Positions 4,146 to 11,604 of a DNA stretch of 40,515 nt are shown in pieces. The notes under the pieces are model-generated. The model was not told where the DNA came from. It worked only from the letters and a program-made list of their open reading frames with translations, and searched no databases. The position numbers and the translations under genes are program-made. The DNA comes from Sulfurimonas sp. (GTDB taxonomy: Bacteria; Campylobacterota; Campylobacteria; Campylobacterales; Sulfurimonadaceae). Position 1 is the first letter of the stretch; each line of letters opens with the position of its first letter. The DNA lies in contig NZ_JALUKE010000051.1 of NCBI RefSeq assembly GCF_027056685.1, positions 1-40,515 on the forward strand, read 5' to 3'.

Positions 4146-5828
4146 ATGATTATTAATATTAAAGAGTTGGTACAACAAACAAAAGATATAAGAGTTCTCT
4201 ATGTTGAAGATGAAGAGAGTGTAAGAGAGCAGACTTTAATGATTTTGGAGATGCTATTTACTTCTATTGATTCTGCGTTTGATGGTGAAGACGGATGGCA
4301 GAAGTATCAAAAAAGTAGTTATGATATTGTTTTTACTGACATAAGTATGCCTCGTATGGGTGGGCTTGAGCTTACTCGTCATATTAAAGAGCAAAATCCT
4401 ATGCAAAAGGTTGCCATTATTTCAGCATATAATACTGCTGATTATCTCTTAGAAGCCATAGAATTAGGTGCAGATGGATTTATTTTAAAGCCTATAAATA
4501 TGAATAAAATGATGATAAGTATTAAGAAATTAGCAGATGGCGTTGTGGCTGCACAATTTATGAGAGATTATAATCAACAGTTACAAGACGAAGTTCAGAA
4601 AAAGACACAAATCATTAAGAAACAGGCTCTTACAGATAAACTTACTACTCTTCAAAATCGTTTTGCGCTTAACACTATGCTTGATAGTTTAGAACAAGAG
4701 ATGAGTCTTGTTTTGGTAAATATTGATAATTTTGATAGTATAAATACAATTTATGGCTATGATAATGGAAATAAAGTTATACAATCTTTGGCAAAACTCA
4801 TTGCTAAAAATATGCCAAGTAATTCAGAATTATATTATGTAGGAAGTGATGAATTTTGTATTGTTGCTCAAGAGATGGATAGAAATAAAATCAAAATTTA
4901 TGCACAAGATCTACAAGAAGTTGTTGCAAATTCGTTTGTGGAGCTTGATGGTAATAAGCTAAAAGGTACTGTTACTATATCCATAGCACAAGGCAGAGAG
5001 AACCTTTTAAAATATGCGCATATAGCACTTAAAGAGGCAAAAAACAAAGGGAAAAATCGTATAGAATTTTATGCAAAAGAGTTAAATGTTGAAAAATTAC
5101 AGCGTCAAATTCAGGAGTATAGTCCTATTATTCGTCAGGCTATTGAGTCTGGAAATATTGTACCTTACTTTCAGCCTATTATTGATAATTCTAGCCATAA
5201 AATTACAAAATATGAGTGTCTAGCAAGAATAGAAGATGGTGATCAGGTTTACTCTCCTTACTATTTTATAGATGTCGCAAGAATGATAGGGCTTGTTTCT
5301 GAAATTACAAAAATAATGATAGATAAATCTTTTAAAATGTTTAGTGGTAATGATTATGAGTTTTCTATTAATATAACAGAAGTTGATCTCAATGATGAAT
5401 ATCTTTATGACTATTTTAAAGAGAAGTTACAGGAGTATAATATTGATGTTTCTCGTGTTATATTGGAAGTTTTAGAAGGAGTAAGTGCGCATGGTCTTAC
5501 TAATTCACTCCAACAGCTCAAAAGATTAAAATCATTTGGATTTACTATTGCCATAGATGATTTTGGAACGCAAAATTCAAATTTTGAAAGAGTTAACAAT
5601 ATGAATGTTGACTTTATTAAGATTGATGGTGGATTTGTCAAAAATATGGCAACAGATGAAAAAAGTTACTCTATAGTGAAGACGATAAGTGAATTTTCAA
5701 AGAGTATAGGGGCAAAGGTAATTGCAGAGTATGTACATGATAAAGAGACACAAAAAAGAGTGGAGGAGCTTGGTATAGAGTATTCACAGGGATACTATTT
5801 TTCTAGACCTAAAAGAGAGTTAGATTGA
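4146..5828 (+). CDS. Response regulator with GGDEF and EAL domains (cyclic-di-GMP turnover)
   Basis: The 560-residue protein has an N-terminal receiver domain (about 14-130) with acidic pocket VEDEE and predicted phospho-acceptor Asp65 in FTDISMPRMGG. A GGDEF domain follows (about 160-300), then an EAL domain (about 310-558). The GGDEF signature is degenerate, reading YVGSDEF, so cyclase activity is doubtful. The EAL domain keeps most metal and catalytic positions: ECL in place of EAL, SINIT, LEVLE, AIDDFGT, IKIDG, AEYV and QGYYFSRP. It therefore plausibly cleaves cyclic-di-GMP under phosphorylation control. It is the first gene of the cassette, and an AAAGGGA precedes the ATG. The nearby histidine kinase is the obvious candidate partner. 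Confidence 0.9.
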   Translation: MIINIKELVQQTKDIRVLYVEDEESVREQTLMILEMLFTSIDSAFDGEDGWQKYQKSSYDIVFTDISMPRMGGLELTRHIKEQNPMQKVAIISAYNTADYLLEAIELGADGFILKPINMNKMMISIKKLADGVVAAQFMRDYNQQLQDEVQKKTQIIKKQALTDKLTTLQNRFALNTMLDSLEQEMSLVLVNIDNFDSINTIYGYDNGNKVIQSLAKLIAKNMPSNSELYYVGSDEFCIVAQEMDRNKIKIYAQDLQEVVANSFVELDGNKLKGTVTISIAQGRENLLKYAHIALKEAKNKGKNRIEFYAKELNVEKLQRQIQEYSPIIRQAIESGNIVPYFQPIIDNSSHKITKYECLARIEDGDQVYSPYYFIDVARMIGLVSEITKIMIDKSFKMFSGNDYEFSINITEVDLNDEYLYDYFKEKLQEYNIDVSRVILEVLEGVSAHGLTNSLQQLKRLKSFGFTIAIDDFGTQNSNFERVNNMNVDFIKIDGGFVKNMATDEKSYSIVKTISEFSKSIGAKVIAEYVHDKETQKRVEELGIEYSQGYYFSRPKRELD

Positions 5829-5906
5829 AAAAGCGTTGGTTATTCAAAAAATATTAATGATGCTGCTGTGGAGTTTAGCATTACTATGAAGGAGTATGTG
5901 GTTTAA
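5829..5906 (+). other. In-frame open tail after the EAL gene stop codon
   Basis: Directly after the TGA at 5826-5828 the same frame stays open for 25 codons to a TAA at 5904-5906, reading KSVGYSKNINDAAVEFSITM and then KEYVV. The stretch looks protein-like, but EAL proteins normally end soon after QGYYFSRP. It contains the AAGGAG that serves the next gene. It could be a remnant of a longer gene, of a deleted neighbour, or chance. Confidence 0.35.
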
Positions 5907-5907
5907 G

Positions 5908-7071
5908 ATGGCGTATAATTTAAAAATTTATGAAAGTTTAAATATTTTATGTGTGGAAGATGATGAGAGTATTCGTACTGTTTACGATGCTATGTTCTCT
6001 CTTGTATTTAAAAATATCTATTTGGCTGAAAATGGAAAAGAAGGATTGAAAATTTTTCAAAAAGAGAAAATAGATATGGTACTTACAGATTACTCTATGC
6101 CTATTATGGATGGTCTTGAAATGAGTAGGCAGATACGAGAAATTGATGCTACTATTCCTATTATTATGATCACAGCTATTGAAAATATTAATATGTTACG
6201 AGATGCCATAGATATTCGTATAACAAGCTTTATAAAAAAGCCAATCTCTTCACAAAGTATCTTTGATACTTTAGAGTTTGTAGCAAAATCAGTTTTAGCA
6301 GAGAGACTTTTAGTGCAATTACAAAAAGAGAAACTGCTTTATGGTGAATACCAAGAGAATTTAACTTATGAAAAAGAGACAAAAATCATAAAAAATGATG
6401 TTGTAGAAGAGAGATTTTTAAATTTTGATTGTGAAGTTTTTTTTCAACCACGAGATACTTTAAGTGGCGATAGTTATAGCATACGAAAGGTTGATGAAGA
6501 GAGGTACTTTGCTTTTATTGTAGATGGTATGGGTAAGGGAATTTCTGCTTCTGTAACTGCTATGATGTGTTGTGCTTATACCAATCATATTGTAAATGAA
6601 ATTATGCTCACAAAAGAGCTCTTTTCTCTCTCTTTGTTAATTCAAAGAGTTATAAAGTTTTTAGCACCAAATTTGTTAGAGTATGAAGTTGTTTCTGCAT
6701 CTTTTTTACTTTTTGATGGAGAAAAAAACGAGCTGGAATACGCAATGTTTTCTATGCCTGCTATGCTTTATGTAAGTAAGGAAGATAAAAGTGTTCATAA
6801 GCTTAAATCAAACAACCCTCCTTTGTCTGCTTGTACAAATAGTGTAAATAGCAATAAAATATTACTGAGTAATATAGATAAATTTCTATTTTTTAGTGAT
6901 GGTGTTAATGAAAATATGCTTAAAGAGTCTAAAGATACCTATGCAAAGTTTTTAAATAATGATTTTTTCGAGAGTGCAAATTTAAAAGAGTTTGAAGCAA
7001 AAAGAGTAAATAGAATTGAAGAGCAAGAGGATGATGTTACTTATATTTATTTAAAAAATGGAGAAAAGTAG
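5908..7071 (+). CDS. Response regulator with SpoIIE/PP2C-type serine phosphatase domain
   Basis: An upstream in-frame ATG at 5896 is only one base from the AAGGAG at 5889-5894, so I prefer the ATG at 5908 (MAYNLKIYES), giving 387 residues. The receiver domain (about 10-125) has the VEDDES pocket and predicted phospho-acceptor Asp61 in LTDYSMPIMDG. After a linker comes a SpoIIE/RsbU-like PP2C domain (about 170-387) with metal-binding motifs SGDSYS, FIVDGMGKGISAS, FFSDGVNEN and EDDVTYIYLK. Proteins of this type dephosphorylate anti-sigma-antagonist or similar partners in response to a kinase. No such partner is encoded in the window. The stop codon directly abuts the next gene's ATG at 7072. 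Confidence 0.88.
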   Translation: MAYNLKIYESLNILCVEDDESIRTVYDAMFSLVFKNIYLAENGKEGLKIFQKEKIDMVLTDYSMPIMDGLEMSRQIREIDATIPIIMITAIENINMLRDAIDIRITSFIKKPISSQSIFDTLEFVAKSVLAERLLVQLQKEKLLYGEYQENLTYEKETKIIKNDVVEERFLNFDCEVFFQPRDTLSGDSYSIRKVDEERYFAFIVDGMGKGISASVTAMMCCAYTNHIVNEIMLTKELFSLSLLIQRVIKFLAPNLLEYEVVSASFLLFDGEKNELEYAMFSMPAMLYVSKEDKSVHKLKSNNPPLSACTNSVNSNKILLSNIDKFLFFSDGVNENMLKESKDTYAKFLNNDFFESANLKEFEAKRVNRIEEQEDDVTYIYLKNGEK

Positions 7072-8961
7072 ATGATAAAATTACTCTTTCTTTTTTGCCT
7101 TTTGAACATTGCTCTTTATGCAGACAATATAGATAATTTACTAGGAATAATACAAAAAAAGAGTGACCTTTCAGAGAAGACAAAGCTTGCAAATAGTGGT
7201 GTCTCTTTTGTATGGACGCGTGATGATTTAGATAGAATGCAAATCACAACTCTTAAACAGGTTTTAAATACAGTCTATCCTTTTGGATATGATGAAAATA
7301 GGTATGGTTTAGTTGACCCACTTACATATAATGCAAATCAACCTTTTTTAAGCTCTACTATTCGCCTCTATATTGACAATCAAGAAATAACAACAGGATT
7401 ATATGGAAGTGGTATTTTTCTTATGGGTGATGCAAATATTGACTGGGTCGATCATATAGAGATATATACAGAAAATCCAACATACGAATATGCAACAGAA
7501 TCAACGGTGACACTTATAAAACTCTATACAAAAAGTGTAGCCAAAGATGAGGGAAGTATGTTAAAAGTTGCGGGTGGAAGTTATGGGGCTGCTACTTTAG
7601 ATGCTTATAATGCCGGTTATATAAGTGATTGGTCCTATTTTGTATTTGGACTTGCCTCAAATGATAAAAGAGAAAAACATTATAGCTTTGCAACAAAGTT
7701 ATCACGAGATAAAAAGATAAATAGTGTAGTGGCGACTCTACATAAGGGGAACACAAACATACTCTTAAATGCATTCTCTCAAGATAGAAATGGTTTTATG
7801 AATGCAAGTTTAGATGCTACACCTGAAAAATCACAACTTAATGCGAAATATTTACATATTGGAATTGATTCTAAGATAAATAATTTTTCTTACCTTTTTA
7901 CTGCAAGTTACTCAAAAACAAAAGCTGAGATGTTAGATGATGTAACGCCTATAACTCCGACATTTCCAATAAAATATACGCAAACAAATACACACTCTTA
8001 TGTTTTAACTGGGGAAGTAAAATATAAATATCATAAAGAAAAGAATACTCTTTTAAGTGGTCTCAAATATAGAACCAAAAGAGCGAAATGGGACAAAGCA
8101 CTCCTTAATGGTATTAATATGGCAGCACATGATGATACACGAGTACAAAATATAGCAACTGCATATATGGAAAATCAATATGCACTGCAAAAAAACTCTA
8201 TTGTTACCATAGGGGCAGAGTATGAGCGAGTAGAAAATAGAGATACAGTTCAAAACGATAATCTTCTCATGTATAGAGTAGGGCATACTTATACAACAGA
8301 TAATTGGACAGTGAAAACTTTTTACTCACATACACTCTCTACGCTAGAACCATACCTTGTTAAGTCATTTACATTTACAGCACATCCTCTCTCTTACTAT
8401 AAACCTTCACAAAATGATACGCTTGTAGAAGATATATTATATGAGAAAAAAAATAATAAGTATGAGTTAATTCTTGATTATACAGAAGGCAAAGATTATT
8501 ATATTCCTTTAGATAAAGGGAGAATAGTCAACTATGACAAAACATTGAAAATGGGTGGAGTTGAAGCACGATGGACGCATTTTTATCATGGTTGTGATAA
8601 GCTTTTTATGCAAGGAGGGTATAGAGTTATCTACAATACTCCTAAAGAGTATTTTAGTACTCTTAAACAATATAGAGCAGTTGTTAGAAATATTAATACT
8701 TTTGATAAATTTGATATTTTTAATGAGTTGATTTACGATAGAAATAATGTTTCAAATAAAAATTTTTACAATTATAGTGCCGGGGTGAAGTATAACTACA
8801 GTGATAGTTTTACTTTTTCTATAAAAGGAGTAAATCTTTTTGATGATGCAAGAACAACTAACTATGCACGAATAAATCCTATAACATTTCAAGCAGAAAA
8901 AGAGCTTAATATATCGCCAATTGATAGAGAAATACAAATTAGTGCAAAGTGGGTTTTCTAA
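7072..8961 (+). CDS. TonB-dependent-receptor-like outer-membrane protein
   Basis: The 629-residue product starts with a signal peptide (residues 1-17, cleavage after ALYA). A plug-like domain follows, including WTRDDLDRMQITTLKQVLN near 48-66 and LYIDNQEI. The rest is rich in alternating aromatic and polar strands and ends in SAKWVF, the terminal phenylalanine expected for outer-membrane barrel assembly. I see no convincing TonB box and no N-terminal secretin/STN signalling domain. It is sandwiched in a signalling operon with no transport genes, so sensing a ligand is at least as likely as import. The start abuts the previous stop, and the stop shares a base with the next start. Confidence 0.8.
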   Translation: MIKLLFLFCLLNIALYADNIDNLLGIIQKKSDLSEKTKLANSGVSFVWTRDDLDRMQITTLKQVLNTVYPFGYDENRYGLVDPLTYNANQPFLSSTIRLYIDNQEITTGLYGSGIFLMGDANIDWVDHIEIYTENPTYEYATESTVTLIKLYTKSVAKDEGSMLKVAGGSYGAATLDAYNAGYISDWSYFVFGLASNDKREKHYSFATKLSRDKKINSVVATLHKGNTNILLNAFSQDRNGFMNASLDATPEKSQLNAKYLHIGIDSKINNFSYLFTASYSKTKAEMLDDVTPITPTFPIKYTQTNTHSYVLTGEVKYKYHKEKNTLLSGLKYRTKRAKWDKALLNGINMAAHDDTRVQNIATAYMENQYALQKNSIVTIGAEYERVENRDTVQNDNLLMYRVGHTYTTDNWTVKTFYSHTLSTLEPYLVKSFTFTAHPLSYYKPSQNDTLVEDILYEKKNNKYELILDYTEGKDYYIPLDKGRIVNYDKTLKMGGVEARWTHFYHGCDKLFMQGGYRVIYNTPKEYFSTLKQYRAVVRNINTFDKFDIFNELIYDRNNVSNKNFYNYSAGVKYNYSDSFTFSIKGVNLFDDARTTNYARINPITFQAEKELNISPIDREIQISAKWVF

Positions 8962-9371
8962 TGAAATTTTTATTTTTGTTGCTAATACTTTTTGTCTCAG
9001 TATATGCAGATGTCTATACACAAAAGTTATATGAGACTATTTTAGGCTCAATTTTTAAAGAGAGACCAATTGTTGTTTTTGTTACAGGTGATGCAAAGGC
9101 TACACTAGAAAATAGTAAAATATTTGATGTGGTTACAACTTGTAAAAATGCTTCTGTAGCCGTTATTGGAGATGATTCGAGTTCAAAACAGGAGTGTGGA
9201 AATATACCAATATTTACGACAACACATAGAGATTATATGCGTATCTTAAATGCTTTTGGAGCATTTTACTGGAGAAAAGGACGCCCACAAATTCATTTTA
9301 GAGAGAGAGGTTTAAAAATGTTTCATCTCCATTTGTCTCATAATTTACAAAGGTTTATAGATGCAGGATAA
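8961..9371 (+). CDS. Small exported periplasmic protein of unknown family
   Basis: The ATG at 8961 overlaps the receptor stop (TAATG) and gives 136 residues with a clear signal peptide (MKFLFLLLILFVSVYA then D). The mature part has two cysteines (VTTCKN and KQECGN), a hydrophobic VAVIG strand and a basic segment, GAFYWRKGRPQIHFRERG, near the C terminus. I do not recognise a family. Position and size recall YfiR, the periplasmic partner in the YfiBNR cyclic-di-GMP system, but I see no convincing DUF4154 signature, so this is only an analogy. Its last 11 bases overlap the histidine kinase gene, which suggests the two proteins are made together and may interact. Confidence 0.75.
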   Translation: MKFLFLLLILFVSVYADVYTQKLYETILGSIFKERPIVVFVTGDAKATLENSKIFDVVTTCKNASVAVIGDDSSSKQECGNIPIFTTTHRDYMRILNAFGAFYWRKGRPQIHFRERGLKMFHLHLSHNLQRFIDAG

Positions 9372-10809
9372 TTTTTTTTCAAAAAAGAGTTTTTATATTT
9401 TTTATGTGACAGTTATTGTCCTTATTGTGGGTGCTTTTTATATCTTTAAAACATTTGATAAAACGAGTAGTGATATAGAGAAATTAACACTTCACTCTAA
9501 TATTGAATACATTAACAATATCACAAATAATCTTGTCGAGTTAATAAATAAAAAAACAGATATGCAACTTGTAGATACTTTAAAAAAGAGTAAGGCGTTA
9601 AGAAAAAATTTGGAAGAAAATTTAAAGATGTTTAGAACGAAGCGGTATAGATATATTTATGTCGTACAAAAGTTGCCAAACACAGAGAAGTTTCGCTTTT
9701 TACTTGATGGAGCAAAAAAGGATAAAAGTGGCTTTTTAGAAATTTTTCAACCTCTTAATATTCAAGAATGGTTGGAGGTCTACAAAACGAAAAAGCCACG
9801 CTACTTTAAACATCAAAGTATTAAAAGCTTATGGTTAACTTATCTCAAACCTATTGTACAACACAATAAAGTTGTTGGAATTATTGCTATAGATTTTTCA
9901 CTCAATGAGTATAACTATATGCATAGTACACTAGATGATCTCTCTTTTAGTGTCAAGATTTTCATGAGCCTATTGCTCTTTATTTTTATTGTTGTTCTTA
10001 TTTTTACAACTATAGATAAAAAACGGGTTTATTTACTTAAAAAGCAGGCACAAGAGATTCAAAATTTTAACATTACTCTTCAAAATAAGATAGATGAAGA
10101 GGTTGCAAAAAATAGAGAAAAAGATAAACAGATTTTGGAGCAGTCTCGTTTAGCACAGATGGGGGAGATGATAGGGATGATTGCACATCAATGGAGACAG
10201 CCTATTAATGCCATTAGTGCAGCAAGTATTACCCTAAATATGAAAGCACAAATGGATAGATTAGATCCAAAAAGTACCATAGAAATTGCAGATAAAATAG
10301 GAGAACTGATACAACATTTGAGTAAAACCATTGATGATTTTAGAAATTTCTTTAAAGATACAAAAGAGAAACAAGATACGACCTATGGAGATTTAATTCA
10401 ATCTACGCTAGATATTGTTGGAGTCTCTGTTGGAAATAAAAATATTACTATTGTAACAGATATACAAAGCGATATAGTTTTTCATACTTACGCAAATGAG
10501 TTAAAGCAGGTGTTGTTAAATCTTATAAAAAATGCAGAAGATGTCTTAGAAGAGAAAAAGATAAAAGATGCCTTTATTAAGATAGAAGCAGTAGAAAATC
10601 GTCTCATCGTTCGTGATAATGGTGGGGGAGTTCCTGAAGATATTATTGAGAAGATATTTGATCCTTACTTTTCAACAAAAACCTTAAATGGAACAGGTCT
10701 TGGACTTTATATGAGTAAGACAATCGTTGAAAATCATTGTGGAGGAACGATTAGTGTAACAAACGATGCAGAAGGTGCAGTTTTTTGTGTTGTACTGCCT
10801 AGTCCATAG
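9361..10809 (+). CDS. Membrane-bound sensor histidine kinase
   Basis: The 482-residue protein has a first membrane helix (about 11-30), a periplasmic sensor of about 165 residues, a second helix (about 200-220), and a coiled-coil linker. The dimerisation domain follows, with the phospho-accepting His276 in MIAHQWRQPINAIS, then an ATPase domain with LLNLIKNAED (N box), IVRDNGGGVPE (G1), FDPYFSTK (F box) and GTGLGLYMSK (G2). The HxWRQPI form of the H box is common in Campylobacterota kinases. There is no receiver domain of its own, so the two receiver proteins upstream are natural phosphate acceptors. The sensor region looks Cache/PAS-like, though that is a guess from size and topology. Confidence 0.92.
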   Translation: MQDNFFSKKSFYIFYVTVIVLIVGAFYIFKTFDKTSSDIEKLTLHSNIEYINNITNNLVELINKKTDMQLVDTLKKSKALRKNLEENLKMFRTKRYRYIYVVQKLPNTEKFRFLLDGAKKDKSGFLEIFQPLNIQEWLEVYKTKKPRYFKHQSIKSLWLTYLKPIVQHNKVVGIIAIDFSLNEYNYMHSTLDDLSFSVKIFMSLLLFIFIVVLIFTTIDKKRVYLLKKQAQEIQNFNITLQNKIDEEVAKNREKDKQILEQSRLAQMGEMIGMIAHQWRQPINAISAASITLNMKAQMDRLDPKSTIEIADKIGELIQHLSKTIDDFRNFFKDTKEKQDTTYGDLIQSTLDIVGVSVGNKNITIVTDIQSDIVFHTYANELKQVLLNLIKNAEDVLEEKKIKDAFIKIEAVENRLIVRDNGGGVPEDIIEKIFDPYFSTKTLNGTGLGLYMSKTIVENHCGGTISVTNDAEGAVFCVVLPSP

Positions 10810-10896: not shown

Positions 10897-11184
10897 ATGA
10901 GCTATGCGGCTTTATTTGAAGATGAAGATGATATTTTTGGTGGTTCACCAAAATCAAAATTTATGGATGTAGTTTTTAATGCAAACAATGACATTGTACG
11001 ACAAGAACTAGAGAACTTTATAGAAAAAGTTGCGGTAATGGAACTTATGTTAGAAGAGCATGTTGGTGAAGATATTGATAGAGCGGTAGATAGTTATAGA
11101 GCTACACATCTTGATGATGCAAGTACAAAAGCAAAAAGTCTTTATGTTGAACTAATGGGGACTGTTCTCTCTCAAAGTGAATAG
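10897..11184 (+). CDS. DUF2018 family protein (HP0242-like)
   Basis: This acidic, helical 95-residue protein (MSYAALFEDEDDIFGGSPKS...) matches the DUF2018 family of Campylobacterota by length, its FEDEDDIFGG start, and position. In Helicobacter pylori the homologue HP0242 is an intertwined all-helical homodimer of unknown function, and it too lies beside the genes for a polyprenyl synthase and hemA. No signal peptide or membrane segment is present. Function is unknown; the conserved neighbourhood is the main clue. Confidence 0.8.
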   Translation: MSYAALFEDEDDIFGGSPKSKFMDVVFNANNDIVRQELENFIEKVAVMELMLEEHVGEDIDRAVDSYRATHLDDASTKAKSLYVELMGTVLSQSE

Positions 11185-11187
11185 TCA

Positions 11188-11604
11188 TTGCGTACGCTAA
11201 GTAGAATTTTATTGGTACTGTTATTTTTTAGCAGTGCCATTTTTGCAAATAATTATGTCTATACGAAAGAAATTTCGCTAAAAAAGGATGAGCAAAAGAA
11301 AATTCTTGTAAAATACGATTCTAAAGAGAAACTTTTTAAATTTAGTTGGACTTTATATATAAATGGTGGCTTAGTTATGCATCGTTCGTACGATAAAATT
11401 GTGGCGCAAAATATTTTATATTTGAATGGAAAAAATCAGAGTTTCAAGCTTGAACTTGTAACGCGTGGTGCAAATTACTATGAACCACCCTATGTGCTAG
11501 TTAAATTTAAAGAGTTTAATGCTCAAAAAAACGAAGCGGTGTTTCAACTGTTCTTACACGATAAAAACAGTGAAATTAAGTGGAAGTTTTTGAAAAATAG
11601 ATAA
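11188..11604 (+). CDS. Exported hypothetical protein (HP0241/Cj0540-like by position)
   Basis: The frame starts at a TTG at 11188, three bases after the DUF2018 stop, and encodes 138 residues. An N-terminal signal sequence (about residues 5-21, RILLVLLFFSSAIFA) predicts export. The mature part is basic and beta-rich, with EISLKKDEQKKILVKYDSKEK first and later LYINGGLVMHRSY and EPPYVLVKF. I do not recognise a domain. Related organisms have a short exported protein of unknown function in the same place, which supports it as a real gene. Confidence 0.7.
   Translation: MRTLSRILLVLLFFSSAIFANNYVYTKEISLKKDEQKKILVKYDSKEKLFKFSWTLYINGGLVMHRSYDKIVAQNILYLNGKNQSFKLELVTRGANYYEPPYVLVKFKEFNAQKNEAVFQLFLHDKNSEIKWKFLKNR

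Follow-up and report, generated by a model that had tools for sequence, protein, structure and literature searches.

The window analysed here, the 40,515 nucleotides of contig NZ_JALUKE010000051.1 (contig C51 of a 2.0 Mb draft genome of Sulfurimonas sp., assembly GCF_027056685.1), carries at positions 4146-10809 a run of five open reading frames (ORFs), all on the forward strand. They encode a receiver-EAL protein, a receiver-SpoIIE phosphatase, a TonB-receptor-like outer-membrane barrel, a small periplasmic protein and an inner-membrane histidine kinase (Table 1). This is the order given in a preliminary description made from the letters alone, and the overlaps that it reported were seen both in the ORFs and in the sequence: the receptor and small-protein genes share one base (TAATG at 8961), and the small-protein and kinase genes share 11 (9361-9371). 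The small-protein frame also has an alternative in-frame GTG start at 8949, which would give a product of 140 residues. Ahead of the receptor the spacing is 67 bases between the two receiver genes and 0 bases between the receiver-SpoIIE gene and the receptor; within the five-gene run, promoter-like and terminator-like sites show no excess over chance.

Table 1. Features of the five-gene run, in window coordinates
Feature	Position	Strand	Length	Evidence
Receiver - degenerate GGDEF (GSDEF) - EAL protein	4146..5828	+	560 aa	Pfam EAL 5e-58, Response_reg 1e-25, GGDEF 3e-21
Receiver - SpoIIE/PP2C-type serine/threonine phosphatase	5896..7071	+	391 aa	Pfam Response_reg 6e-24, SpoIIE 5e-19
Plugged TonB-receptor-like outer-membrane barrel, signal peptide	7072..8961	+	629 aa	AlphaFold2 (AF2) model, Foldseek, VIA-align
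Receptor Plug domain, approximate, residues 44-153	7201..7530	+		Model secondary structure; Plug matches in 37/41 receptor-family relatives
Small periplasmic protein, YfiR fold (predicted)	8961..9371	+	136 aa from ATG	AF2, Foldseek, VIA-align, alignment A1
Inner-membrane histidine kinase, HisKA HQWRQP + HATPase_c	9361..10809	+	482 aa	Pfam, alignment A3
Kinase periplasmic sensor domain, approximate	9463..9960	+		phmmer with kinase residues 1-215

Only three of the five genes make up the conserved core of this locus. When 99 related genomes were searched with the receptor and, independently, with the small protein, matches came from 47 and 46 genomes, respectively, at positions that are adjacent in nearly all of them. 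The regions found in this way and 80 named loci taken from another collection were typed gene by gene, which gave 103 non-redundant loci from Campylobacterota and Aquificota (L-numbers below are locus labels; C-numbers are contigs of the window's genome, G000). Throughout this set the order is receptor, small protein and then a membrane protein, the third gene. The first two genes overlap in 82 of the 103 cassettes and the second and third in 83 of 101, and at both junctions almost all the others lie no more than 20 bases apart; because this tight spacing is conserved, the coupling of the cassette genes is more than chance. The co-occurrence that the preliminary description expected of all five genes thus extends to the receptor, the small protein and the third gene, and the complete five-gene set is confined to the window, L072 and L077. 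Hosts of the cassette include Sulfurimonas, Sulfuricurvum, Sulfurovum, Sulfurospirillum, Arcobacter, Nitratiruptor and Nautiliaceae among the Campylobacterota, and Persephonella and Aquificaceae among the Aquificota; the closest relatives of the window locus are Sulfurimonas metagenome-assembled genomes. In a phylum-wide draw of 249 genomes, the small protein was found in 41, belonging to 16 of 55 genera.

The third gene comes with different outputs: a GGDEF or GGDEF-EAL protein in 81 of the 103 loci and a histidine kinase, as in the window, in 18 (four are truncated). The lack of a membrane cyclase, which had been listed among the distinguishing marks of the system, therefore does not hold for the family: 81 of 99 typed cassettes encode a GGDEF or GGDEF-EAL membrane protein that carries the sensor of the kinase form, and the window's genome itself carries both forms, the kinase cassette on C51 and a cyclase cassette on C156. 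Judged by sequence, kinase and cyclase third genes have one periplasmic sensor domain in common: when residues 1-215 of the window kinase were used in a single-sequence phmmer search of 1798 ORFs (E<1e-3), 162 were matched, every one of which adjoins a cassette receptor or small gene, and 131 of these matches are GGDEF proteins (best 2.4e-30). This domain has no clear relative in Pfam, nor in the PDB by sequence; CHASE8 and HAMP are matched neither in it nor among the families listed for cyclase-type third genes. The kinase domains proper are matched by Pfam as HisKA (motif HQWRQP) and HATPase_c, and Pfam and the alignments show conserved phosphorylation residues in both the kinase and the receivers, as in a two-component system.

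In the receptor tree the 18 kinase cassettes occupy one side of a branch (Shimodaira-Hasegawa-like approximate likelihood ratio test, SH-aLRT, 95), and in the sensor tree 17 kinase sensors likewise group on one side of a branch (SH-aLRT 96); since the kinase form is a single clade, one output swap suffices. The wider spread of the cyclase form hints that it may be the older state, the tree itself being unrooted. Two cassettes depart from the shared sensor: in L080 (9699-11516) and L081 (4236-6053), both from the window's genus, the third gene encodes a PAS histidine kinase of 605 residues whose periplasmic sensor is of another kind, and cysteines are absent from the small protein. In L079 (10243-13155), a 970-residue histidine kinase with NMT1/SBP-type binding domains directly follows a kinase-type cassette.

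The small protein is predicted to be a YfiR-fold protein that is not a member of DUF4154. Its AF2 model (predicted local distance difference test score, pLDDT, 91.7) was compared with solved structures by Foldseek and VIA-align: the best match is the YfiR structure 4xjy_A (VIA-align Z 10.8 over 117 residues, root-mean-square deviation (rmsd) 2.7), and YfiR entries fill eight of the ten best rows. Substrate-binding proteins take the remaining two; members of this group in the fold list, such as 3lkv and 6k1w, score Z 8-10.5. The family has no Pfam or NCBIfam match, and the window's protein has no match in the PDB by sequence. DUF4154 (PF13689) is absent from the families matched by 53 members of the small-protein family, whereas E. 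coli YfiR matches it at 5e-31; a comparison by hhalign of alignment A1 with the single E. coli YfiR sequence also gave no link. A1 itself displays a conserved C-terminal hairpin, GAFFWxKGRPNI. We also noted a pair of cysteines, Cys61 and Cys79 (window 9141-9197), kept in 29 of the 53 family members. Because this pair is kept, and because the YfiR-family protein HmsC has been linked to redox (PMC5550408), redox sensing by the small protein is possible.

The receptor is modelled (pLDDT 86.9) as a plugged TonB-receptor barrel, close to BtuB by Foldseek (E 3.7e-22) and to FyuA by VIA-align (Z 34.4 over 546 residues, rmsd 2.9). It thus has the plug and barrel fold of TonB-dependent transporters; Pfam matches neither a Plug nor an STN domain in the window's protein, although the Plug domain is matched in most of its relatives (Table 1). 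Its fold, which is that of the importers BtuB and FyuA, might suggest an ordinary TonB-dependent importer, with the small protein as a ligand-binding protein or chaperone for what is imported, a role for which the substrate-binding proteins in its fold list could speak, and with a kinase that senses periplasmic substrate. We consider this quite unlikely. Each of the genome's three ordinary TonB receptors has the TonB-box pattern LxPhxh (LAPLEV, LSPINI and LAPMSV), but none of 102 cassette receptors has it, the motif being loose enough that an unusual box could escape it; at the TonB-box position the cassette receptors have a common segment resembling LLxxYxxxSDLSxxTKxESxG, in a low-confidence part of the model. 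Moreover, no import genes recur beside the cassette, other copies of which are flanked by PFOR, LepA, Prs or unrelated genes, and what does recur as the third gene is a signalling output. The missing pattern is consistent with signalling that does not depend on classical TonB coupling; a non-canonical box is conceivable. We searched the neighbouring genes for the identity of the ligand as well, and the same flanking genes offered no clue.

When these parts are set beside known systems, the window locus is probably a YfiBNR-like relay in which a TonB-receptor-like barrel stands at the place of YfiB and a kinase at that of the cyclase. YfiBNR (TpbB) of P. aeruginosa, YfiR-DgcN-YfiB of E. coli and HmsCDE of Yersinia likewise have an outer-membrane part, a YfiR-fold periplasmic protein, an inner-membrane sensor and a cyclic-di-GMP output, and are likewise encoded together; in YfiBNR, the outer-membrane YfiB sequesters YfiR, by which the inhibition of YfiN is relieved (PMC3375315). 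The outer-membrane part of YfiBNR is an OmpA/Pal lipoprotein, of which there is none among the five genes, whereas the cassette has a plugged TonB-receptor-like barrel; the cassette's small protein has no DUF4154 match; and in place of a membrane GGDEF protein with periplasmic PAS (CHASE8) and HAMP domains the window has a kinase and a receiver-EAL protein. The preliminary description, which saw a YfiBNR-like layout built from different parts, was right about the barrel and the kinase; the small protein, given its predicted YfiR fold, is the part for which the statement fails. FecA-FecR-FecI is similar in that a TonB-receptor-like barrel passes a signal inward by periplasmic contact, but the window receptor has no STN domain, and, as had been stated, neither a FecR anti-sigma nor an extracytoplasmic function (ECF) sigma gene is present at the locus. 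Two-component systems that control cyclic-di-GMP through a receiver-EAL protein also pair a histidine kinase with an adjoining receiver-EAL phosphodiesterase; the window kinase differs from theirs in being the third gene of a receptor cassette, with a sensor also found in membrane cyclases.

Output swapping in YfiR systems is already known: Malone et al. (2012) described YfiR-YfiN systems as modular, with distant relatives that exchange GGDEF for GGDEF-EAL, HPt or histidine kinase outputs and that are mostly without YfiB (PMC3375315). That paper makes no mention of TonB. Nor did literature on YfiR and TonB receptors yield a TonB-receptor input to such a system or any account of this cassette family, which is weak evidence, as most subscription journals lie outside the search. 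To what is known the cassette adds an input at the outer membrane, a divergent family with the YfiR fold, a sensor common to both output types whose swap is confined to one clade, and a broad distribution across taxa.

The interpretation that we favour, to which we assign a probability of about 0.6, is a three-gene trans-envelope relay that has both receiver genes as its outputs. The first of these genes had been called EAL-type, and the receiver and EAL domains were indeed matched; the description missed the GGDEF domain that lies between them. Its GGDEF motif is degenerate and its EAL catalytic motifs are conserved, and it is probably a phosphorylation-controlled cyclic-di-GMP phosphodiesterase. 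That a receiver protein predicted to degrade cyclic-di-GMP accompanies the kinase form is supported by its recurrence: a receiver gene with GGDEF and/or EAL domains lies within six genes of the cassette in 11 of the 18 kinase loci and in 0 of the 81 cyclase loci (Fisher 2.5e-10, a figure that overstates independence, given that the kinase form is one clade and the 18 loci are not 18 independent events). In another kinase locus, L074, a receiver-HD protein of the HD-GYP type is found instead. Some full-length receiver-EAL partners contain a PAS-like insert and others do not, and they stand upstream of the cassette in some kinase loci and downstream in others; two such types and an HD type, on either side, suggest repeated recruitment, while falling short of proof. 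In all full-length partners the EAL motifs are intact and the GGDEF motifs degenerate, a combination that speaks for cyclic-di-GMP breakdown as the retained function, whereas the short receiver-GGDEF proteins of L072 and L143 have GGDEF/GGEEF motifs.

Besides the single-clade origin of the kinase form, several observations weigh against this interpretation. Homology of the small protein to YfiR is argued from the fold, and no link between E. coli YfiR and alignment A1 emerges from sequence profiles. The two receiver genes of L072 and L077 have a FIST-PAS histidine kinase between them, and on C124 of the genome that contains the window (L220/L009, 442-4485) a FIST-PAS kinase is paired with a receiver-GGDEF-EAL gene related to that of the window. 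Because of these FIST kinases the receivers may belong to another kinase, which is where the pairing of the cassette kinase with the receivers is most vulnerable: the receptor, small protein and kinase could be a sensor unit in themselves, and the upstream receivers mere neighbours that belonged to a FIST-PAS-type kinase since lost from the locus. We regard this alternative as unlikely. In L135 the cassette run includes a receiver-GGDEF-EAL gene of the window's subtype, and no kinase other than that of the cassette lies within six genes; six further loci (L076, L144, L145, L146, L155 and L171) have, after the cassette kinase and within its run, a receiver-EAL gene of another type, one that contains PAS. 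Gene neighbourhood supports phosphotransfer from the cassette kinase to the receivers, with the FIST kinase as a competing candidate.

The role of the receiver-SpoIIE gene is less prominent than had been proposed. By eye, its product has the acidic PP2C motifs, and the gene is joined to the run by the 0-base gap, so one could suppose that it is a main output, acting by partner switching through STAS and anti-sigma proteins; this seems improbable to us. The gene stands beside only 3 of the 18 kinase cassettes (the window, L072 and L077), a search of the genome turned up no small free-standing STAS gene, and the only two STAS matches, in open frames of 515 and 383 residues, are not at the locus; all STAS and HATPase_c_2 matches are on other contigs, and no partner was found nearby. 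The phosphatase-controlled switch of the preliminary description is thus weakly founded. The genome encodes three SpoIIE proteins, and we noted on another contig (G000:C68:30812-31846) a 421-residue protein in which a SpoIIE phosphatase and an RsbW-type ATPase domain are fused; the cassettes of L075 and L136 have SpoIIE-like proteins of about this size nearby. At the other end of the run, 3' of the kinase (window 10897-11604), are genes for a DUF2018 protein and a 138-residue protein with a likely signal peptide, as is also the case in L072 and L073.

We infer how the proposed relay would operate, from ligand sensing and complex formation, through the direction of regulation, to phosphotransfer and the effect on cyclic-di-GMP. 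The plugged barrel would detect an extracellular ligand or state and, as that state changes, would shift its hold on the YfiR-fold protein, in the simplest case by binding or release, as with YfiB and YfiR. Freed or captured, the YfiR-fold protein would then determine how active the third protein's periplasmic sensor domain is. Where the third protein is of the GGDEF or GGDEF-EAL type, as in most relatives, it would alter cyclic-di-GMP directly; in the kinase clade, to which the window belongs, this sensor is instead attached to a histidine kinase, and control of cyclic-di-GMP would have moved to the neighbouring receiver-EAL phosphodiesterase. The window kinase would phosphorylate this phosphodiesterase and perhaps also, as a second output, the receiver-SpoIIE phosphatase.

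A second run in the same genome, C26 (L219, 2603-7211), places together a TonB receptor of 687 residues, a 182-residue periplasmic protein and a HAMP-GGDEF-EAL membrane protein. In most of the related loci the receptor and the small protein again form a pair, and their neighbours, which have the same sensor, include GGDEF-EAL proteins as well as kinases. The family of the 182-residue protein has a weak hhalign profile match to the window's small-protein family (probability 73, part of the match being signal peptide), and the C26 receptor has no LxPhxh pattern. Since this run is of the same design but is made of other proteins, the receptor-messenger-sensor design is recurrent rather than a one-off. 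We venture, at somewhat less than even confidence, a broader proposal: that the TonB-receptor-like barrels of the cassettes, a family widespread in Campylobacterota and Aquificota, are dedicated, TonB-independent signal receptors that act through YfiR-fold messengers on sensors with interchangeable outputs, as a class distinct from FecAIR and from the lipoprotein-based YfiBNR.

If these proposals are correct, many chemolithotrophic bacteria of vents, sediments and groundwater would gain an outer-membrane sensor that feeds into cyclic-di-GMP, and some annotated TonB-dependent transporters in Campylobacterota and Aquificota may not transport. They would also suggest what replaces YfiB, in this lineage, for YfiR-type systems that lack it. 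The cassettes further offer a natural experiment, in which one set of receptor, messenger and sensor is connected to a cyclase in some cases and to a kinase with a receiver-phosphodiesterase in others, both arrangements being present in one genome.

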